DNA from: Bacteroidales bacterium
GTDB taxonomy: Bacteria > Bacteroidota > Bacteroidia > Bacteroidales > UBA932
Direction of reading: 5' to 3'
DNA: 64,000 bases
Assembly (NCBI GenBank): GCA_015060455.1
Contig: SUYM01000012.1
Location: forward strand, 19,225-83,224
Shown: positions 1,618 to 31,979 of the stretch, piece by piece
Position numbering within the stretch: the first letter of the stretch is position 1
Layout: every line of letters starts with the position of its first letter
Notes under the pieces: model-generated
The model's database searches: none
What the model saw: the letters and a program-made list of their open reading frames with translations, nothing else
Told to the model about the DNA's origin: nothing
Position numbers and translations under genes: made by a program

Positions 1618-2891
1618 TCAGATTTCGTACGACTATATTGATGCTTGTGTTTTCTGTGTGCTTCTTTTCTGCGGGGGCGCGGGATACTGCTGTGGGATTG
1701 CCTGAAAAAGAGGACACGAGCCGGGTGGAAAACAAAAAGAAGTCCGGGCCGATTGCTATCGATAACTGGGGGGATGCATCCAGATATATAAGACAGCGTA
1801 GAGATGTGAGCGCACCTAAGACGCCTTTTGTTACAGATAAATTCAGGGAAAACCTGCATCTGGGAGTTGTGGGACTTGCCCGTGCTCCGTTCTCGGATGA
1901 TTATGCCTTTGCTTATGGTGCGGGAGTATCGGCATTGAAGTGGTTCAATACTTCTTTGGGTGTCCGTGCGGATGTCTTGGGAGAGTATATGCACAGCAAT
2001 CTTACAGGGAATCGTGTTGGTGAGTTGTCGGTTGGATGCTCGCTGTTGTTTAATGTGTCTTCCTATATCTCCGGTTTTGACAAAATGCGTTTCTGTGAGG
2101 TATCTACTGTGATGGGAGTGGGATATTCCTGTCGTTGGGACCTTATGACAGAGCATTACTTTGCCGGTAATGTCGGTGTAAATATCAATATGAGGCTGGG
2201 CAAAGGGCTGTCTCTTTATTTGGAGCCTCACCTGCCTCTGTATTTGGGAATCGGTGGACTTACATATGGTTTTGCTACCAGTGCAGGAATTTATTATGAC
2301 CTGTCAACCCAGTTGTATAAACCGACTATTGCTGGAAAGTATTATGTGTTCTGCTCAGGCGGAATGCAGTTGCAGAATTCCGAACTGGTGAAAATGGCTT
2401 CGGACAAGGATTATTCCACAATAGGTTATACGACGTCCTTGGGCTTTGGCCGCCGTTTTGACGATTATCTGGCTTTGAGACTGTCGGCTCTTTATTCCAC
2501 CCATACATGGACAGTCTATTATGGCGGCAAGGCTATGCCTGCCAGATATTTTGCCTTCAGGGCCGAGGTGGAGTTCGATGCCTTGAGTCTGATTCTGGAC
2601 AAGTGCGGTGTGAAGAACTTTCCTCTCGGCTTTGGTGTCGTTTTAGGACCTGAGGCGGGATGCCTGATCAAGAAGGATCTTGGAGAGACTCTCACAAGAC
2701 ACTATGTAGGACTGACCGGCGCATTCCATCTGGATTATCATTTCGGAAAGAGGGTCGGTGTCTTCATTGAGCCACGTATGTCCCTGCTGCCATACAGCGC
2801 CCCTCATGACTCGAGTACAGCAAATAATGCCTACCGAAACTATTACGACGGTCTGTTCAATCTGACATTAGGCGTCGAGGTGGATATTTAG
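1614..2891 (+). CDS. Putative outer-membrane beta-barrel protein
   Basis: 425 residues with a clear signal peptide (hydrophobic stretch LMLVFSVCFFSAGA ending near residue 23). From about residue 60 onward the sequence is a series of short amphipathic strands with alternating aromatic/Gly residues and turns, as expected of an outer-membrane barrel, ending in a strand-like terminus (LTLGVEVDI). It overlaps the OmpA-like gene by 4 nt and ends the operon, since a strong terminator follows at 2931. Probably an envelope partner of the preceding protein. I do not recognise a specific family and infer location only from the signal peptide and strand pattern. Confidence 0.7.
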   Translation: MIRFRTTILMLVFSVCFFSAGARDTAVGLPEKEDTSRVENKKKSGPIAIDNWGDASRYIRQRRDVSAPKTPFVTDKFRENLHLGVVGLARAPFSDDYAFAYGAGVSALKWFNTSLGVRADVLGEYMHSNLTGNRVGELSVGCSLLFNVSSYISGFDKMRFCEVSTVMGVGYSCRWDLMTEHYFAGNVGVNINMRLGKGLSLYLEPHLPLYLGIGGLTYGFATSAGIYYDLSTQLYKPTIAGKYYVFCSGGMQLQNSELVKMASDKDYSTIGYTTSLGFGRRFDDYLALRLSALYSTHTWTVYYGGKAMPARYFAFRAEVEFDALSLILDKCGVKNFPLGFGVVLGPEAGCLIKKDLGETLTRHYVGLTGAFHLDYHFGKRVGVFIEPRMSLLPYSAPHDSSTANNAYRNYYDGLFNLTLGVEVDI

Positions 2892-2930
2892 ATCCGGTCA
2901 ATCGTTTATAGTCATCAAATTTATAGTATA

Positions 2931-2959
2931 AAAATGGCGCATTGTGCGCCATTTTTATT
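2931..2959 (+). terminator. Rho-independent terminator after the barrel-protein gene
   Basis: A 10-bp stem AAAATGGCGC / GCGCCATTTT with a 5-nt loop (ATTGT), followed by a T-rich run. It sits 40 bp after the stop at 2891 and just before the purE promoter. Confidence 0.85.
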
Positions 2960-2966
2960 ATTTTTG
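2959..2966 (+). promoter_or_regulatory. Bacteroidota -7 box for purE
   Basis: TATTTTTG matches the TAnnTTTG consensus and lies 30 nt before the purE ATG. A well-spaced TTG -33 element is not evident because the terminator stem occupies that position. Confidence 0.55.
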
Positions 2967-2995
2967 CGGGATTGTAGAAAATACTTGACAAATAT

Positions 2996-3463
2996 ATGAA
3001 AGTAGCAGTAATCATGGGATCGACCAGCGACCTTGACATCATGTCGCAGGCGATAAATGTCCTCGAAGATCTCGGGGTGGAAGTAGTTAAGAGAGTCATC
3101 AGCGCACACCGTACTCCTGACCTTATGTGCGAGTTTGCAAAATCGGCAAAGGCAGAAGGTATCGGTGCCATCATTGCCGGAGCAGGCGGGGCGGCCCACG
3201 TGGCAGGTGTCGTTGCCGGCATGACCACAGTTCCTGTAATCGGAGTCCCTATCCAGACCAAGGCTCTCGGCGGAATGGATTCGCTTCTTTCCATTGTGCA
3301 GATGCCTGCCGGTATTCCTGTGGCGACTATGGCCATCAACGGAGCCAAGAATGCAGGCCTTTTCGCAGCCCAGATTCTTGCGCTGACAGATGCGGAACTG
3401 TCTGCAAGACTTGACGCCTTCCGCGCTGCACAGACACAGAAAGTGCTGGATGCGACAATTTAA
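2996..3463 (+). CDS. purE: N5-carboxyaminoimidazole ribonucleotide mutase (PurE)
   Basis: Class I PurE of 155 residues, near the usual 160. It converts N5-CAIR to CAIR in de novo purine synthesis in the cytosol. Visible signatures are the N-terminal [10 protein letters not shown] phosphate-binding segment, SAHRTPD with the catalytic His, and the Gly/Ala-rich [14 protein letters not shown] region. It has its own -7 box 30 nt upstream and is followed, across a short dispersed repeat, by purL and purF, forming a purine cluster. No purK is seen in the window. Confidence 0.95.
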
Positions 3464-3466
3464 AAA

Positions 3467-3515
3467 GATGTCTCGACTTCGCTCCTTTGTTATCCTGAGC
3501 GCAGCGAAGGATCTG
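3467..3515. repeat. Short dispersed palindromic repeat (purE-purL gap)
   Basis: Inverted arm pair: GATGTCTCGACTTCGCTC then TATCCTGAGCGCAGCGAAGG ending in ATCTG. Member of the dispersed family found throughout the window (arms of the form TGTCATnCnGAGCG and GGATCTG). Fills most of the 78-bp gap between purE and purL. Confidence 0.75.
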
Positions 3516-3541
3516 TTTAAAGAATACAACTGAATCACTAT

Positions 3542-6500
3542 ATGAACAACTATCGCATTTACGTAGAAAAGTACCCTGAATTTCAGGTGGAAGCACGCAG
3601 CCTCTTGAGCGAGTTGAACGAAAACCTTCAACTTGATCTCTCGACGCTGCGTCTGCTCAATGTATATGACCTCTTCGGTTTCTCGAAGGACCTTCTCGAG
3701 AAGAGCCGCTACAGCGTGTTCGGAGAGATCGTGACCGACAGCGTGACCGACGAGTGTAACCTCGAAGGCGCGAAATATATTGCCGTGGAGTACCTTCCGG
3801 GCCAGTTCGACCAGAGGGCGGCTTCAGCAGTGGATTGCGTGCGCCTTATAGACCCGTCCGCACAGGTAAGCATAAAGAGTTCGAAACTCATCATCCTGCC
3901 GGCAGACACAACAGATGAGGTGATTGCCAAGATCAAGAAATATTATATCAATGCGGTGGAGTCCCGCGAGAAGGACCTCTCGAAACTCAATGCAATGGAG
4001 CAGCCGGAGGTGATACCGGTACAGGTCCTCGAAGGCCTGACCGCCCTCACGGAAGAGGAACTTGCACCGTATTGCAAGAAGATGGGGCTGGCAATGAACG
4101 CCGATGACCTCCGTGAGGTTGTCAATTACTTCAAGGCCGAGGGACGCGATCCGTTCGAGACCGAACTCCGTATCCTTGATACATATTGGTCTGACCACTG
4201 CCGTCATACAACCTTCACCACAGAACTTGAAGACATCGATGTGGAGGAGTCCTTCCTCAAAGACGAGATTGACGGCACGCTCAACCTCTACATGAAGATC
4301 CGCAAGGAACTCGGACGTGAGAACAAGGGCCTGAACCTTATGGACATGGCCTGCATCGGCGCGCGTTACCTCAAGAGCAAGGGCCTTCTTGATGATATGG
4401 AGGTAAGCGAGGAGAATAACGCATGCAGCATCTATGTGGATGTCGATATAGTTGACGACGAGGGCGAGATGACCACAGAAAAGTGGCTTCTCCAGTTCAA
4501 GAACGAGACACACAACCACCCGACTGAAATCGAGCCGTTCGGTGGTGCGGCAACCTGTCTGGGCGGTGCCATCCGTGACCCTCTTTCAGGCCGTGCGTAT
4601 GTTTATCAGGCTATGCGCGTGACAGGAGCAGGTGATATCTATCTCCCTGTGGCCGACACCATGCCGGGCAAACTTCCGCAGAGCATCATTTCACGTAAGG
4701 CCGCTCACGGATATTCAAGTTACGGTAACCAGATCGGACTTGCGACGACTCATGTGCGTGAGGTATATCACGAGGGATATGTTGCAAAGCGTCTCGAAGT
4801 GGGTGCAGTTGTCGGTGCAGTGAAGGCTGACAGCGTACGTCGCGAAAGCCCTGCCCCTGGCGATGTGGTCCTCCTTCTCGGCGGCCGTACAGGTCGTGAC
4901 GGAGTAGGTGGAGCGACAGGCTCGTCAAAGGAGCACACTGAGGAGTCTCTCGAGACCTGCGGCAGCGAGGTTCAGAAGGGTAATGCACCAGAGGAAAGGA
5001 AACTCCAGAGGCTTTTCCGCCGTCCTGAGGTGACAAGACTCATCAAGAAATCCAACGACTTCGGTGCTGGCGGCGTCAGCGTGGCGATCGGCGAACTTAC
5101 CGACGGTCTTGACATATACCTTGACAGAGTGCCGACAAAGTATAGCGGACTCAACTCCACAGAACTGGCCATCAGCGAGTCGCAGGAGCGTATGTCGGTT
5201 GTAATCGAGGCAAAGGACAAGGAAGCTATGATGGCTTACTGCGCAAGTGAGAATGTAGAGGTAACCCATGTTGCTGACGTTACTGACAGAGGCCGCATGC
5301 GTATGTTCAACGGTGAGAGAATGGTGGTTGACCTTTCCCGCGAATTTATCGACAGCGCGGGAGCAAAGCATTACGCAAAGGCTACCGTAGGTGCAGTCGA
5401 GCAGAAGAATCCGTTTGAGCGTAATGTGGAGGGTGAAAACCTCCGTGAGAAGATGTTCAACAATCTCCAGGATCCTAATGTTACTTCACAGAAGGGTCTG
5501 ATCGAGATGTTCGACTCTTCTATCGGCCGTTCGACAGTCCTTATGCCGTTCGGAGGTATGCTCCAGACCACTGAGACACAGGTGTCTGTACAGAAGCTTC
5601 CTACTGACGGATATACTGATACCGCGTCTATCATGGCGTTCGGTTACAACCCGTTCATCGCAAGCTGGAGCCCGTATCATGGCGCTGCATACGCAGTAGT
5701 CGAGGCATGCTCGAAGGTTGTTGCCGCAGGTGCATCATACGAGAAGATGCGTTTTTCTTATCAGGAGTATTTCGAGAGAATGACCGACCGCAAGTCATGG
5801 GGCAAGCCGCTTTCAGCCCTTCTTGGTGCCCTCAAAATGCAGGTTGAGTTCGGTCTCCCGTCTATCGGTGGCAAGGACTCCATGAGCGGAACATTCGAGA
5901 ACATCAACGTGCCGCCTATGCTCATGGCCTTCGGTATCACCACTGTCGATGCTGAGCAGGTCATCTCTCCTGAACTCAAATACGAAGGCAACAAACTGTA
6001 TCTGGTCAAGCATACTCCACTTGACAACCACATGCCGGATGTGGAGCAACTCAAGGCCAACTGGAAGTTCATCCACGAGCAGGTGCTCTCTGACAATATC
6101 GTTTCTGGCTATGCACTCGGATTCGGAGGCGTTGCCGAGGCTATCTGTAAGATGTCTTTCGGTAACGGTCTTGATGCCAAGATAAATATGGATGAGGCAG
6201 AACTCTTCAACTACGGTTACGGTTCCATCCTCGTCGAGGCAGAGAATGCCCTCGACTATCCGAATGCGGTCCTCATCGGTGAGGTGACTGACGGAGAGGA
6301 GAGCGAACTTACGGTGAACGGTGTCAAGTTTGACCTTTTCGAACTCATGGATGTCAACGGCGCCAAGTTCGCACAGGTATATCCTGATACTGCCGAGGCA
6401 TATCACAAGGAGGTCGTTCCTGCCGGAATGGAAGATGTGAAGCCTCTCAAAGTCAAGAAATCCCAGATGAAATATAAGGGCGAACCTGTTCAGAAGCCTA

Positions 6501-7347: not shown

Positions 7348-8736
7348 ATGTGTAATTGTAAAAAGATAATGGATGACAAGCTGCACCACGAGTGTGGTGT
7401 GCTTGGAATTTATGGCGTGCAGGATGCTGCAGGCCTGGCGTATTATGGCCTTCATGCTCTCCAGCATAGGGGACAGCAGGGATGTGGCATCGTGACAGTT
7501 GACGCAGAGGGCGAATTCCATCGCGTGAAAGGTGATGGACTGGTGACAGAGGTGTTCAACGAGTCAAAAATGGCCCTTCTTCCGGGCGATATGGCCATCG
7601 GCCATGTGCGTTACAGCAACGCAGGATGCAAGGGAACGGAGAATCTCCAGCCATTCCTTTTCCATCACAATTCGGGCGACTTTGCATTGGCAAACAATGG
7701 ACAGATAGTCAACTATCGCCAGCTACGTGAGGAACTCGAAGATAAGGGAAGCCTTTTCCAGTCGTCTTCTGATGCGGAAGTACTTGCCCATCTTATCAAG
7801 AAGCAGGGTATTGATAAGGAACAGCCTCGTATCAATTCTCTCAAGAACGCCCTCAATATGATGGACGGTGCGTTCGCATTCGTCGTTATGACAGGCCGTC
7901 GTATCTATGCCTGCCGTGACAAGTACGGATTCCATCCGCTTGCTCTCGGTAAACTGGGCGATGGATATGTTGTTGCCAGCGAGACTTGCGCGTTCGATGT
8001 CCTCGGAGCGGAGTATATCCGCGACGTCGAACCTGGTGAAATCGTTACTATCGACCACCATGGAGTACGCAGCCAGTTCTACGCACCGACCGAGCGTCAT
8101 GCGATGTGTGCGATGGAGTATGTCTATTTCGCCCGTCCTGACAGCGATATAGAGGGTTGCAATGTGCATAATTACAGAAAGGAGTCTGGCAGGATCCTGT
8201 TCAAGGAGGCGCCTGCTGATGCGGATATCGTCATTGGTGTCCCTGATTCAAGCCTTTCTGCAGCACAGGGTTATGCAGAGGCCAGTGGCCTTCCATACGA
8301 GATGGGTCTTATCAAGAGCAAATATGTAGGTCGTACATTCATTCTTCCGACCCAGTCTCTCCGTGAGAAGGGCGTGAAGATGAAACTCTCCCCGGTAAGA
8401 TCTATCGTCAAGGGCAAGAGGGTAGTGCTGGTGGATGATTCCATCGTGCGCGGTACCACTTCCCTCAAGATCGTGAAAATGCTTCGTGAAGCCGGAGCCG
8501 CCGAGGTACATGTCCGCATTGCCAGCGCTCCGCTGAAATACACCTGCTACTATGGCGTGGATGTCCACACCCCTGAAGAACTCATAAGCAACAGCAACAG
8601 CGTAGAAAAGGTGTGCGAACTCATAGGCGCGGACTCGCTGGCCTTCCTCTCCCACAAGGGAATGTTGGATGCAGGCCGCCGAAGCGACCTCTGTCTCGCA
8701 TGTTTCAACCATAAATATCCTACAAAACTGTATTAG
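7348..8736 (+). CDS. purF: Amidophosphoribosyltransferase (PurF), Fe-S type
   Basis: First committed step of purine synthesis: PRPP plus glutamine to phosphoribosylamine. I place the start at ATG 7348 (462 aa) because the frame extension to 7297 only translates an intergenic repeat; ATG 7369 is also possible. Cleavage before Cys16 (HHE-CGVLGIYG) would expose the N-terminal nucleophile, giving a short propeptide as in the Bacillus subtilis type. Class II glutaminase is N-terminal; the PRPP loop is VDDSIVRGTT (residues 362-371). Cys254, Cys400, Cys449 and Cys452 sit where the 4Fe-4S ligands of the Bacillus enzyme lie, so an oxygen-labile cluster is likely. Confidence 0.95.
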   Translation: MCNCKKIMDDKLHHECGVLGIYGVQDAAGLAYYGLHALQHRGQQGCGIVTVDAEGEFHRVKGDGLVTEVFNESKMALLPGDMAIGHVRYSNAGCKGTENLQPFLFHHNSGDFALANNGQIVNYRQLREELEDKGSLFQSSSDAEVLAHLIKKQGIDKEQPRINSLKNALNMMDGAFAFVVMTGRRIYACRDKYGFHPLALGKLGDGYVVASETCAFDVLGAEYIRDVEPGEIVTIDHHGVRSQFYAPTERHAMCAMEYVYFARPDSDIEGCNVHNYRKESGRILFKEAPADADIVIGVPDSSLSAAQGYAEASGLPYEMGLIKSKYVGRTFILPTQSLREKGVKMKLSPVRSIVKGKRVVLVDDSIVRGTTSLKIVKMLREAGAAEVHVRIASAPLKYTCYYGVDVHTPEELISNSNSVEKVCELIGADSLAFLSHKGMLDAGRRSDLCLACFNHKYPTKLY

Positions 8737-11570: not shown

Positions 11571-11642
11571 GGCCCTGTAGTTCAACGGATAGAATGGAAG
11601 TTTCCTAAACTTTAGATAGCAGTTCGATTCTGCTCGGGGCTA
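11571..11642 (+). tRNA. tRNA-Arg (anticodon CCT)
   Basis: 72-nt cloverleaf folded by hand. Acceptor GGCCCTG pairs with CGGGGCT (two G-U type pairs), D stem GTTC/GAAT, anticodon stem GAAGT/ACTTT with loop TTCCTAA (anticodon CCT reads AGG), 4-nt variable loop, T stem AGCAG/CTGCT with loop TTCGATT, discriminator A. The 3' CCA is not encoded. Confidence 0.92.
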
Positions 11643-11645
11643 CAG

Positions 11646-11685
11646 ACTCGCAAATCGCTTAACGGTGGTTTGCGAGTTTTGTTTT
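11646..11685 (+). terminator. Terminator after tRNA-Arg
   Basis: Perfect 9-bp stem ACTCGCAAA / TTTGCGAGT with a 14-nt loop, then TTTGTTTTG. It begins 4 nt beyond the tRNA. Confidence 0.8.
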
Positions 11686-11792
11686 GTGGACGGCGCATCT
11701 GTTTCCGGTCACAGTATGATGCAGGCCAGGCAGGATGGTGGAAATGGAACGGATATTGGAAATGTCGAAGGGAACGATTAAAACGAACTGCT

Positions 11793-27841: not shown

Positions 27842-27847
27842 CACCCG

Positions 27848-27921
27848 GTTATTAGTTTTAGTGTTATTAATTATGTGGTTAGTATGAGGTGCCCCACGCG
27901 AGTGGCGCAACTCATTTTTTT
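27848..27921 (+). ncRNA. Candidate ~75-nt small RNA or orphaned leader
   Basis: Bounded by the promoter at 27812-27841 and the terminator at 27884-27921. A short frame from ATG 27884 would run through the terminator and is not convincing. The terminator ends exactly where the 37-bp direct repeat flanking the DUF262 module begins. It may be an independent small RNA, or the former leader of ridA cut off by the module. Confidence 0.4.
27884..27921 (+). terminator. Terminator of the short transcript
   Basis: ATGAGGTGCCCCAC, loop GCGA, GTGGCGCAACTCAT (14-bp stem with two mismatches) followed by seven T. The T-run also supplies the first two stop-codon bases of the opposing DUF262-DUF1524 gene. 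Confidence 0.75.
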
Positions 27922-30058
27922 ATATTGTCACCATCTCTTGGTATTTGACCGGAATTTGTTGATTGTCTGGCGACTGAATGTCTGCATATTCTTCTGTGGT
28001 TTTCTTGAAGTATTCCTTGGCGGCTTCCTTCATTTTTGTGAAGTGCTCCTGACATCGCTCTTCTCCCCAACAATCGTTGTATTGATAAATCATGTCTGAT
28101 TTCAAAGAATCTATGAAGCCATGACTCCTCTTGTCAAGATAAGAAGCCCGTTTTTCTTTGTAGGACTTATTGTTGTAACTGGAATTGTCTTGGCTTGATA
28201 TCAGGGCGAGGTTGCCGAAATCGTCGCAATTTGAAATTTTCTCCTCATCAAACTTTGGCGTTTGCGGGGAGATGTGTTCTATCGAGTTTTTTGAGTTGAT
28301 CCGATATTCTTTCCATCTTTGATTTCTGTCGTCCTCCCGGGTTTTCCAGAGTATATACTCCATCTTATAGAAAAGGTAGTGTGCGAAGCCGCAGCCTTTG
28401 GATTCGCATATCCTTTCGTGGAAACAGTTATAATAATCTTCTGCATTACCTGGCTTCAAACCTTCTGACATCACAGTGTATGTTCTGATGATCATATCGT
28501 CTTCATGCCTTTGGCAAAGAAGGTTGTTATCCAATTCCTGAAGGTATTTGAGCAAGGTGCCCGGGTCATCTTCGGTAAGAGCCTTGTATATGAAAGGACA
28601 GATCCAGTGCTCATAAATACGAGGCTGAGAAAAATAGAGCATGCTCTGCAATTGAGACATGTCGTTTATATTTTCCGAGAGGTCTCTTGTGACAGATAGG
28701 GTGCCTTGCCCTGAGTTTTCGTAGATTCTGAGTTTCTTTATAGCCAGGACGGGTTCACGAGAGTGCTCTGTAGAAACAAATTTGACTACATGTCTGTCAA
28801 AGGCATATCTGACTTTCCACAATAGGTGTAAGAATTTCACTGAGGCTTTCTTGTTTTGATTGTTTTCCAGCCAGTTTATAAACGGAGAGAATATATGCAG
28901 AAGTTTCTTCTCGTTGAAAATATTGATGTCGCATCTGTCGCCACAGCCATATATGTTGATTTTGTCGCTTACCAGGAAGATGCGCAATGTATAGAGCAGA
29001 AGCATAGGGAATGATGCTATGCTCCTGACGGTTTCACCATATTTGTCAGGGCGGTTATTTTCTGCACACTCCGGTCTGTAATTCTTTATGATTTCTAACA
29101 GGTCTTCGGAACGAGTTATGTCGTTGACTTCGTTATGAACTCTCTCATTTATAAATTGCTCCAGAAATCTGTCATCAAAGTCCAAATCACTTTCCCCTCC
29201 GCCGTTTTTGGCTTTCAGCAGGTCTTTCCATGTCAGTCTGGGGTCCTGGTGGTATATGTTGGATTCAATATAGCCGGACATGTCTGAGCAACTGTCCCAG
29301 AGTTGTCCATATCTTATGAGCATGTCTTCGTTGTCATCAATATCTCGTCTTACCGTCTTTAAGATCCGTGACTTCAATATATCTGTCTGCGACAGTTGTT
29401 GTCCTCTGCCGTTAATCAACTCGAATATTTTATTCAGGTCTGCATCGTCGGGTATCCGAGTCTCGATCAGGACTACATTTGTCAAAAGATATTCTGCGAA
29501 ATCCCGAAGACTGTTCTTTCTGTCGTCAAGTTCTAAAAATGACCGGATATGTCCTGCCGCGTCAATCAAATTTCTCAGATCCGGAATGTCGTCATGTAAA
29601 GTTGAATCAAGACCAAGAGTGCTGATGAACTCTGATACTTTTGGTCTGATTGAAAAACAAATTCTTTCCCTGCCGGATTTCTTGCAAAAATCTGTCAGGA
29701 TGTCTGGAGCGTTATCTGCCAGGAGACACCGTAGTGTATTGCAAGTGAGCCATAAGGTTGTGAATCTCTGCTGCCCGTCTATCAGGTCAAATGTTCTGTC
29801 TGCTTCTCTGTTCGGAGCCGTCATGATTCCTCCAAGGAAGTATTTTTGTTCCTTGGTCTCAAACGCATTGTATATGTCTTCCAGCAGCGTGTTGACTTGA
29901 GCCTGTTTCCAGACGTAAAGTCTCTGATATATAGGGACGTTAAAATATTTGTCCTCTTTTACAATGTCCGTCAATATAATGTATGCTGACCTGTATTCAG
30001 AATTGTTCATAAGCACTTTCTGCCCATTTAAGTTTAACGTCTCTAAGGTCTCCGTCAT
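27920..30058 (-). CDS. DUF262-DUF1524 protein, GmrSD-like nuclease
   Basis: 712 residues. N-terminal DUF262 domain: VPIYQRLYVW at 41-50, IDGQQRFTTLW with DGQQR at 94-98 and a later INGRGQQLS. C-terminal DUF1524 HNH-type domain: SIEHISPQTP with His595, FGNLALI and NNKSYKEKR, all intact. This fused arrangement is that of single-chain GmrSD type IV restriction enzymes and of SspE/BrxU relatives, which cleave modified phage DNA using nucleotide hydrolysis. The start may be ATG 30010 instead of 30058. It overlaps the upstream DUF262 gene. The last 12 residues (701-712) lie in a 37-bp direct repeat, and the stop codon is completed by flanking DNA. Visibly more AT-rich than neighbours. Confidence 0.85.
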   Translation of the reverse strand: MTETLETLNLNGQKVLMNNSEYRSAYIILTDIVKEDKYFNVPIYQRLYVWKQAQVNTLLEDIYNAFETKEQKYFLGGIMTAPNREADRTFDLIDGQQRFTTLWLTCNTLRCLLADNAPDILTDFCKKSGRERICFSIRPKVSEFISTLGLDSTLHDDIPDLRNLIDAAGHIRSFLELDDRKNSLRDFAEYLLTNVVLIETRIPDDADLNKIFELINGRGQQLSQTDILKSRILKTVRRDIDDNEDMLIRYGQLWDSCSDMSGYIESNIYHQDPRLTWKDLLKAKNGGGESDLDFDDRFLEQFINERVHNEVNDITRSEDLLEIIKNYRPECAENNRPDKYGETVRSIASFPMLLLYTLRIFLVSDKINIYGCGDRCDINIFNEKKLLHIFSPFINWLENNQNKKASVKFLHLLWKVRYAFDRHVVKFVSTEHSREPVLAIKKLRIYENSGQGTLSVTRDLSENINDMSQLQSMLYFSQPRIYEHWICPFIYKALTEDDPGTLLKYLQELDNNLLCQRHEDDMIIRTYTVMSEGLKPGNAEDYYNCFHERICESKGCGFAHYLFYKMEYILWKTREDDRNQRWKEYRINSKNSIEHISPQTPKFDEEKISNCDDFGNLALISSQDNSSYNNKSYKEKRASYLDKRSHGFIDSLKSDMIYQYNDCWGEERCQEHFTKMKEAAKEYFKKTTEEYADIQSPDNQQIPVKYQEMVTI
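27922..27958. repeat. 37-bp direct repeat, left copy, flanking the DUF262 module
   Basis: Identical at all 37 positions to 31530-31566, beginning ATATTGTCACCATCTC and ending ACCGGAATTTG. Bases outside differ on both sides. Encodes the C-terminus of the DUF262-DUF1524 protein. Confidence 0.95.
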
Positions 30059-31454
30059 AATTTTTTCCGAAGTATTTTTTGCATGCTTCTATATAGCAGT
30101 TTATTGGCCCGTTCTCAGGCTTTTTGTGCTCATCTTTCAGAGTGAGGGAAGATATGTAGGCGAACACTTCCTGTGGCTCGTAACTGATCTGGATCAGATC
30201 CAGGATATTGTTCTCGCGCGTGAAATTCCTCATAGCCACCTCCTTTAAGTAATAAGTGTTCAGACGGATTGTTCCGATTATATAGTCAGTATATAATGCG
30301 AAGCGATAAAGTTCCCGACTGCCGAACTTATCGTAGTAAGCCATCACCATTATGATGAAAAAGTCGGTAATATATTTGCTGGACCGGGAATCAATATATA
30401 GTTTTTGGTAAAGTTCCCTGACTTTGCGCACGGTCCTGTCTGATGTTTCCTTCTCAAACAGGTTCTGTGCTATCGTGTGGTAAGTGTCAAAGAAAGCGAA
30501 GACACTAACTCCTTTATATAGGGGCTGTCTTATGCTGAACAGATGACTTTTATCCTCGCTGCTGTCGTCTTCCGGTATCTCCTGCTTGTTTGAAAGGGAG
30601 TGCGAGTGTGTGAATTTTCTATGACTTCCAGCAGGATAGTAGCAGATGGTGTTGCCGTGATTCTTTAACGGATTGTCAGCAAATTCCTCCATGGCGGAAT
30701 TATAGTCGGACCTGTTCTCAAAGTCCTTGCCTTTCCATCTGCGGATTCTCCATAATGCCATGTCAACAAGATTGTCCAGATAATCTTCCGGGGAATTACG
30801 GAAGAGATTACTCCTGTTCGTCTGAATGTCTTGCCACCTTCTCGCGCAGTCGATCCTGAGGGCATTGTCGTTCTGTATTGCCCTCAGATGCACGGCCTTC
30901 ATTACATCTACGGCAGCCGGCTGTATGCCCCGATTGTTTTGGGAATCAAAGAAGGTGAATGCGTCATCCTCGCTTTCTGTCATAATGACGCAAAATTTCA
31001 GATGGTTGAAAATGTCGGATATGTTGACAGACGAGGGTTTACCACCCAATTGAGACTTTGCGTATTCGAGGTTGCTGTGGATGTTTTGCCTGGACAAATG
31101 ATGGCTGAATGAAAAGTTTAACTGCTGACTGTATTTTATCAAAGCAGAGTCGTCACCATTTAATATGTAGTCAATAAGCAGGATGGAGGTGAGACGCTGC
31201 TGACCGTCAACTATGTTCATGACTTTGTTTGACTCATTTTTATGTATAATGAGAGTGCCCATGTAGTACCAGCAACCAGGGACGGAGCGGGATTCCAGAA
31301 ATTCTCTCCAGTCATCCAGAAGTTGTCCGATTTTCTTGTTGCTCCAGACATATGGACGTTGGTATGGCGGAATCTGGATTGTATAACCCTTATCCTTGAT
31401 TAGTTGGAAAAGTGTTTCGTAGGAAGGGTTTTCAACATGAATGTAATCGGTCAT
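29997..31454 (-). CDS. DUF262 protein, partner of the GmrSD-like gene
   Basis: 485 residues. DUF262 hallmarks: IPPYQRPYVW at 28-37, VDGQQRLTSILL with DGQQR at 83-87, and FFDSQNNRGIQPAAVDVMKA. No DUF1524 domain is present, so any nuclease activity would have to come from the partner. It is the first gene of a two-gene operon with a strong promoter at 31481-31510 and overlaps the second by 14-62 nt. The sequence differs greatly from the partner's DUF262, so the pair is not a recent tandem duplication. Role as a defence sensor/ATPase half is inferred. Confidence 0.8.
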   Translation of the reverse strand: MTDYIHVENPSYETLFQLIKDKGYTIQIPPYQRPYVWSNKKIGQLLDDWREFLESRSVPGCWYYMGTLIIHKNESNKVMNIVDGQQRLTSILLIDYILNGDDSALIKYSQQLNFSFSHHLSRQNIHSNLEYAKSQLGGKPSSVNISDIFNHLKFCVIMTESEDDAFTFFDSQNNRGIQPAAVDVMKAVHLRAIQNDNALRIDCARRWQDIQTNRSNLFRNSPEDYLDNLVDMALWRIRRWKGKDFENRSDYNSAMEEFADNPLKNHGNTICYYPAGSHRKFTHSHSLSNKQEIPEDDSSEDKSHLFSIRQPLYKGVSVFAFFDTYHTIAQNLFEKETSDRTVRKVRELYQKLYIDSRSSKYITDFFIIMVMAYYDKFGSRELYRFALYTDYIIGTIRLNTYYLKEVAMRNFTRENNILDLIQISYEPQEVFAYISSLTLKDEHKKPENGPINCYIEACKKYFGKNYDGDLRDVKLKWAESAYEQF

Positions 31455-31480
31455 TGTAGCGGTTATTTTATGTCAGAGTG

Positions 31481-31510
31481 CAAAGATATACATTTTGTAA
31501 ATGACCGCAA
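31481..31510 (-). promoter_or_regulatory. Promoter of the DUF262 operon
   Basis: On the minus strand: TTG (31510-31508), exact 19-nt spacer, TATCTTTG (31488-31481). Transcription should start about 20 nt before the ATG at 31454. The promoter lies inside the module, between the direct repeats. Confidence 0.8.
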
Positions 31511-31529
31511 CCTGTACCGTACAATGCTA

Positions 31530-31566
31530 ATATTGTCACCATCTCTTGGTATTTGACCGGAATTTG
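31530..31566. repeat. 37-bp direct repeat, right copy, flanking the DUF262 module
   Basis: Perfect copy of 27922-27958. In this copy the reading frame of the C-terminal codons continues without a stop. It contains the TTG -33 element of the ridA promoter. Confidence 0.95.
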
Positions 31567-31575
31567 CTAAATTTG
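31546..31575 (+). promoter_or_regulatory. ridA promoter, half inside the direct repeat
   Basis: TTG 31546-31548 (inside the 37-bp repeat), 19-nt spacer, TAAATTTG 31568-31575 (outside it). About 25 nt of leader before the ridA ATG. Confidence 0.7.
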
Positions 31576-31604: not shown

Positions 31605-31979
31605 ATGAAACGAGTAATAGCAACCCCTGATGCACCCAAGGCGGTGGGCCCATATTCACAGGCCATTGAAGTGAACGGAACACTTTATATTTCGGGTCAG
31701 ATTCCGGTAAATCCGGCTGACGGAAAGGTCCAGGAGGATATTGTCGCTGCGGCTCACCAGTCGTTGAAGAACATCGGCGCCATTCTCAAAGAGGCGGGCA
31801 TGACATACGACAATGTGGTGAAGACAACCGTCCTTCTTGCTGACATCGCTGATTTCAAGGCTGTCAATGAGGTTTATGCTGAGTATTTTACAGGTGACAA
31901 GCCTGCACGTGCCTGCTATCAGGCAGCAGCCCTTCCTCTTGGAGTGAAGGTTGAGATTGAGGCGATCGCAGTGAAATAA
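31605..31979 (+). CDS. ridA: RidA family enamine/imine deaminase
   Basis: 124 residues, usual size. Hydrolyses reactive 2-aminoacrylate and related enamines formed by PLP enzymes. Opens KRVIATPDAPKAVGPYSQAIEVNGTLYISGQIP, with the conserved YSQA, and contains the active-site Arg in KPARACYQAAALPLGVKVEIEAIA. Its stop overlaps the next start by one base (TAATG at 31977), so the two are coupled. Confidence 0.95.
   Translation: MKRVIATPDAPKAVGPYSQAIEVNGTLYISGQIPVNPADGKVQEDIVAAAHQSLKNIGAILKEAGMTYDNVVKTTVLLADIADFKAVNEVYAEYFTGDKPARACYQAAALPLGVKVEIEAIAVK

Follow-up and report, generated by a model that had tools for sequence, protein, structure and literature searches.

By what route do small modules for defence arrive at new places in a chromosome when no mobile element carries them? 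This open question is raised by a locus on contig SUYM01000012.1 of a Bacteroidales bacterium (GTDB lineage UBA932; assembly GCA_015060455.1). The window, by which we mean the whole stretch of 64,000 nucleotides analysed here, carries two minus-strand genes for DUF262 proteins, which are flanked by a small-RNA-like gene on one side and by ridA on the other and are enclosed by a direct repeat of 37 bp. We consider it likely that a linear fragment with this TgvAB-like pair, its second gene lacking the 3′ end of close relatives, was inserted between the small-RNA-like gene and ridA, and that 37 bp of the target were duplicated in the process.

The two copies of the repeat, at positions 27922-27958 (left) and 31530-31566 (right), are identical in all 37 positions. 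No such match was obtained in 100 shuffles, with three mismatches allowed. In the organism's own assembly (2.5 Mb in 51 contigs, 82.94% complete), the 37-bp sequence is present in exactly two copies, both flanking the pair. The inserted segment extends from 27959 to 31529 (3,571 bp), with its bounds set by the repeat and by the end of gene homology. Its G+C content is 0.425, compared with 0.494 and 0.496 in the flanks. Between the copies there are two minus-strand genes, recognised as open reading frames, and their own promoter (31481-31510, minus strand), which has the form TTG-N19-TATCTTTG and is of the Bacteroidota type by the promoter consensus of that phylum. The promoter of ridA (31546-31575, plus strand) lies across the border of the right copy, with TTG at 31546-31548 within the repeat and TAAATTTG at 31568-31575 just beyond it, after a spacer of 19. 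The ridA gene itself, assigned to the Ribonuc_L-PSP family by Pfam, occupies 31605-31979 on the plus strand. From the left copy, in turn, the final 12 residues of the downstream DUF262 protein are read (QIPVKYQEMVTI), and two of the three bases of the stop codon fall in the adjacent T-run of the left neighbour. In all of these features, namely the exact repeat, the two genes with their promoter, the coding role of the left copy and the -33 element of ridA supplied by the right copy, a preliminary description of the locus proved accurate.

To which side the repeat belongs can be read from the downstream gene. This tgvB-like gene (27920-30010, minus strand) is truncated at its 3′ end and codes for a protein with a DUF262 (GmrSD_N) and a DUF1524 (GmrSD_C) domain. 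Its longest open reading frame begins at 30058, and the ATG at 30010, which aligns with the starts of homologues, is the likely start codon (696 amino acids). Among the 59 next-ranked homologues (P0002-P0060), 47 consist of 925-950 amino acids and 12 are shorter, several of the latter being located on short contigs. Compared with its close relatives, the window protein is shorter by about a quarter, and it is not full length for its own subgroup. In the best relative, P0002 (64% identity), residues 1-687 align to residues 17-700 of the window protein, and then the match ends. In genome coordinates, the match to P0002 extends as far as C14:47183; this position corresponds to window base 27959, which directly follows the left repeat. 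Residues 688-945 of P0002 (258 of its 945) have no match anywhere in the own assembly. The 12-residue tail that takes their place was absent from the 239 other proteins fetched, including 119 homologues of the tgvB-like gene. Because the homology ends at the repeat edge and the tail occurs in none of the homologues fetched, the repeat belongs to the target and not to the gene. The inserted segment is thus bordered immediately by a long direct duplication.

It had been suggested earlier that the right copy might be what remains of a third, lost DUF262 gene, namely its 3′ end. That one copy encodes the C-terminus of a DUF262 protein would fit this, but that end is not native, as the close relatives continue with some 230-260 other residues, and none of the other proteins fetched carries the tail; we regard this origin as extremely improbable. 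The earlier picture of a compact inserted cassette stands in part: the evidence supports insertion with no recombinase of its own but not an intact cassette, since the 3′ end that close relatives possess is missing from the nuclease gene. What is new here is a second gene that was cut short and finished with target sequence. Homologues ranked 61-120 (425-673 amino acids, about 34-47% identity over the aligned parts) are likewise without the extension; the wider family thus manages without it, and the two-domain core of the window protein is complete. The C-terminal extension of about 230-260 residues was observed in the closest relatives and in loci L096-L098, and it is absent from the homologues ranked 61-120. 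Four proteins with the extension (P0002 residues 688-945 and its equivalents) were scanned, and no Pfam match was found in that part.

A junction of this kind could also be produced by a metagenome assembler if a short repeat led it to connect pieces that are not linked, and the fragmented state of the assembly, with its 51 contigs and 82.94% completeness, would fit such an error. However, where the left junction runs into the gene, the corresponding sequence of relatives does not contain the repeat, so there was no shared word to cause the join. In addition, the 712-amino-acid fusion protein is a single member sequence found on 22 contigs, which may not be independent, the longest of them having 169,671 bases. 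An assembly artefact is therefore very improbable.

A second case was found in another species of the same genus (locus L236, G021:C60:1-12000). There, a related pair (2141-3652 and 3655-5691) lies between the genes for AbiEi (PF11459, 1387-2148) and AbiEii (PF08843, 5736-6671), both identified with Pfam. The 3′ end of the AbiEi gene is repeated before the AbiEii gene, forming a 22-bp duplication with 21 of 22 bases alike. In all 11 relatives compared (L247-L257), which are the strongest AbiEii matches in other genomes, the operon is unsplit: the stop of AbiEi overlaps the start of AbiEii, and there is nothing between them. Any match to AbiEii was obtained in 41 of 250 genomes. It follows from the unsplit operon of the relatives that the pair of L236 entered the toxin-antitoxin operon with a 22-bp duplication. 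The second proteins of L236 and of the window share about 25% identity, and because the pairs are only distantly related, we take the two as separate events. We also observed that, of the inserted genes of L236, the first has its ATG inside the duplicated stretch, and that a predicted defence module is nested here within an AbiEi-AbiEii toxin-antitoxin operon.

The second case bears on another explanation for the window, in which a full-length module already stood upstream of ridA, the nuclease gene lost its 3′ end by a deletion, and 37 bp copied from the ridA promoter region served to patch the break. A truncation flush with the repeat is explained equally well in this way, and the chromosome region is indeed rearranged, as set out below. 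Such a course would require, besides the deletion, a templated patch from 3.6 kb away, and it does not cover L236, where the site is unsplit in 11 of 11 relatives. We consider it unlikely.

The frequency of such repeats was determined in two surveys. In the first, the best ungapped repeat within 300 bp of the pair was scored at 90 loci (3 of 93 were dropped; L178-L183 and L245 were not entered). The window scored 37 and L236 scored 19, while the other 88 loci gave 13 or less, and 1063 cross-locus pairs used as a control reached at most 14. In the second, flanks of 1.5 kb were compared, and 7 of the 93 loci were dropped because their flanks were too short; a match at E ≤0.02 was obtained in 9 of 86 loci, compared with 8 of 425 cross pairs, one of which had an E of 1.6e-9. 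A general rule that such modules bring target duplications was considered and rejected, since no locus among the 90 scored above the controls except the window and L236. Three weaker candidates were noted, all to be read with the matches that the controls of the flank test also gave. In L100, from Spirochaetia, stretches of 28 bp at 89% and of 31 bp at 84% are repeated. L238 (G280) has 21 bp repeated exactly, but some 700 bp separate one of the copies from the pair, and L098 has 71 bp at 73% in the 1.5-kb flank test. In L100, the end of the upstream gene (7717-7826) seems to be repeated, in decayed form, behind the pair (11679-11775), and this repeat is perhaps an old long target duplication.

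Among the families searched, no enzyme of integration was found next to the pair. The integrase family PF00589 has three matches in the genome, none of them on the contig of the window. A Pfam search of 24 proteins, those of the module and its neighbours, assigned families to 22 and left 2 without one; no recombinase or transposase was among them, a result that does not extend to further families of recombinases or to the remainder of the contig. No donor of the module could be identified either, the nearest protein being P0002 at 64% identity. In the collection viral_contigs, 8 relatives were obtained that are 23-49% identical in their best segment, and two of these, L176 and L177, hold distant pairs.

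A recombinase acting in trans could nevertheless have integrated a small circle, in which case the 37-bp repeats would be attL and attR. Exact direct repeats lie on both sides of a compact segment, as this would require, and one of them stands directly behind the small-RNA-like gene; integrases favour sites behind genes of this kind. Yet the 37-bp sequence, which the preliminary description had proposed to look for near other islands, has no copy in the own assembly besides the two at the pair. It gave no exact match in the collection genome_contigs, where very near records may be omitted, and its 28-base core is absent from viral_contigs, so that the same core was met neither at other insertions nor in elements. 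Moreover, the homology of the inserted gene ends flush with the repeat, the sister case L236 has a different 22-bp sequence, and the contig has no PF00589 match (serine recombinases were not covered by that search). Integration in trans is therefore unlikely. That the module inserted without a recombinase of its own is supported by the rarity of DUF7834, the domain that marks the upstream gene, by the low G+C content of the segment, by the lack of a PF00589 match on the contig and by the unsplit site of the sister case.

Restriction-modification genes offer a precedent. Insertion of such genes with long target duplication was reportedly described by Nobusato et al. (Gene 259:99, 2000). According to the available text of two further sources (PMC3874152, PMC1643837), restriction-modification units insert with long target duplications of variable length, which a review puts at the order of 100 bp, some of them unlinked to mobile elements, and the movement of these units is often tied to genome rearrangements. 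That text gives no enzyme for this mode of insertion. The window resembles these cases in that restriction genes, a long duplication and a nearby rearrangement occur together, and no linked mobile element was found within the PF00589 search of the contig and the 24 proteins scanned with Pfam. It differs from them in the length of the duplications (37 bp, and 22 bp in L236), in a type IV layout without a modification gene, and in that one end was cut into a gene. A literature search, from which subscription papers were mostly excluded, found nothing that links GmrSD, direct repeats and defense.

For the window, the insertion may be pictured as follows. The site before the event would have consisted of the terminator of the small-RNA-like gene, a single 37-bp copy and the -7 box of ridA. 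Two offset strand breaks, 37 nt apart, would have opened this site, and a linear piece of foreign DNA would have been joined into the break. Fill-in of the overhangs would then have left one 37-bp copy on each side. Such a capture of a fragment would need no dedicated recombinase. As the duplicated stretch contains the -33 element of ridA, both neighbours would keep their signals, and a single copy of the 37 bp would give a compact and sensible intergenic region. A bolder version, in which the pair modules move themselves without any recombinase, is speculative and quite unlikely. In that version, the module's own His-Me nuclease would nick opposite strands 22-37 nt apart and module DNA would be captured in the gap; the duplication length would record the nick spacing, new tails would be welded onto the incoming proteins, and the promoters of the neighbours would stay intact.

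The target region was compared with ridA loci of other genomes. With the use of ARAGORN, tRNA-Arg(cct) was found within 400 bp upstream of ridA in 20 of 37 such loci, five of which hold less than 400 bp of upstream sequence. In the window, tRNA-Arg(cct) is located at 11571-11643, about 20 kb from ridA (31605), and the block between them contains core genes (ATP synthase, serA-like, serC-like and pyrBI) and a DUF2147 gene. From this gene order we infer that the separation of tRNA-Arg(cct) and ridA is a rearrangement of the window's lineage which adjoins the insertion.

Several points weigh against the insertion as we propose it. The small-RNA-like gene was found within 400 bp upstream of ridA in none of the 37 loci of other genomes, and hence the left flank itself reached ridA by rearrangement and the pre-insertion site is a reconstruction. 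No empty site of the same species was seen among the genomes compared, which represent one per species. A tight repeat above the controls was present in 2 of 90 loci and so is not the usual signature of the module. P0011, a homologue of 688 amino acids on a contig of 96.5 kb, is also without the C-terminal part, with no insertion known there; because it is similarly short, the truncation in the window could predate the insertion.

The pair itself belongs to a two-gene family. The upstream tgvA-like gene (29997-31454, minus strand) codes for a protein with DUF262 (GmrSD_N) and DUF7834 domains, and by Pfam the pair consists of an upstream DUF262-DUF7834 gene and a downstream DUF262-DUF1524 gene. 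Of 400 genomes examined from the genus, 12 have DUF7834, that of the window among them, and 11 of these are above the cut-off. Relatives of the downstream protein were collected from 273 genome stretches, and the layout was counted in the best 80 loci. Both genes are adjacent in 77 of these 80 (the exceptions are L104, L120 and L156), the end of the upstream gene lying no more than 30 bp from the downstream start and mostly overlapping it. A separate DUF262 partner, which had been called less usual, is on this count the rule, and the known systems TgvAB and GrwAB have the two-gene form as well. Two IMG/VR contigs (L176 and L177) carry a distant two-gene DUF262 pair of about 24% identity.

The QR, DGQQR and FxxxN motifs are present in both proteins; in the first they read PPYQRPYVW, VDGQQRL and FDSQN. 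In the second protein, Q45 and R46, D94-R98, F212, N216, H595 and N616 are invariant in alignment A1, H595 and N616 being the histidine and asparagine of the His-Me motif. The PADLOC profiles Orf5, HEC-06, SspE and mREase_IV were among the best 25 matches. The predicted function of the module is recognition of modified phage DNA, in which the two DUF262 proteins would both take part, followed by cleavage through the His-Me (DUF1524) domain.

TgvAB is described in the available part of its source as a two-protein GmrSD-like type IV restriction system with homologues in Bacteroides fragilis among others (PMC11411939). The window shows the same layout, two adjacent genes with DUF262 in the first and DUF262 plus DUF1524 in the second, and the same motifs. 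The likeness to the Vibrio cholerae system is one of layout and motifs. The window differs from TgvAB in that its second protein is a member of a subgroup characterised by a C-terminal extension, here lost, and in that no type I restriction-modification genes stand beside the pair among the neighbours scanned. GrwAB, as far as the available text goes, also comprises two DUF262 proteins, one of them with DUF1524, and both are needed (PMC12137116). Unlike in the window, its nuclease subunit is the product of the first gene (GrwA), and GrwB and TgvA are distinct beyond DUF262, according to the same text.

The left neighbour of the insertion is a small-RNA-like gene of 75 nt (27847-27921, plus strand) with a near-invariant 5′ stretch, a terminator hairpin and a T-run, and conserved copies of it occur in the genus. 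A promoter -7 box, TACCTTTG, lies just upstream, and the repeat starts directly after the gene. The 5′ stretch that is nearly invariant reads GGTTATTAG...TTATGTGGTTAG. The 700-bp left flank was matched in 127 of 151 genomes, and most of the matches listed correspond to its positions 626-700, which are the small-RNA-like gene. Among the copies shown, the sequence 3′ of the T-run varies, and so do the contexts (in L084 and L213 the gene stands behind tRNA-Cys). In 23 sequences, 5 of the 15 pairs predicted over the entire RNA had two-sided changes, all in the terminator hairpin, which therefore covaries. The gene resembles FopS, a paralogous small RNA family of Bacteroides, in having a conserved single-stranded 5′ part followed by a terminator hairpin and in being present in more than one copy per genome. 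It differs from FopS in its score for Rfam RF04319 (19.1 bits, below the cut-off of 56, and thus not a member by score) and in its 2 copies in the own assembly, compared with 14 in B. thetaiotaomicron according to the available text of PMC11697453. The small-RNA-like gene possibly represents an undescribed family.

Together, the window and L236 provide two products of one module family, with duplications alike in 37 of 37 and 21 of 22 bases; the two differ in their sites as well as in the length of the duplication. As two products are now known, one of them with its site unsplit in relatives, the mobility of such modules has become testable. The window also shows that the landing of a module can be accompanied by the shortening of a nuclease gene, whose end is then supplied by host promoter sequence.

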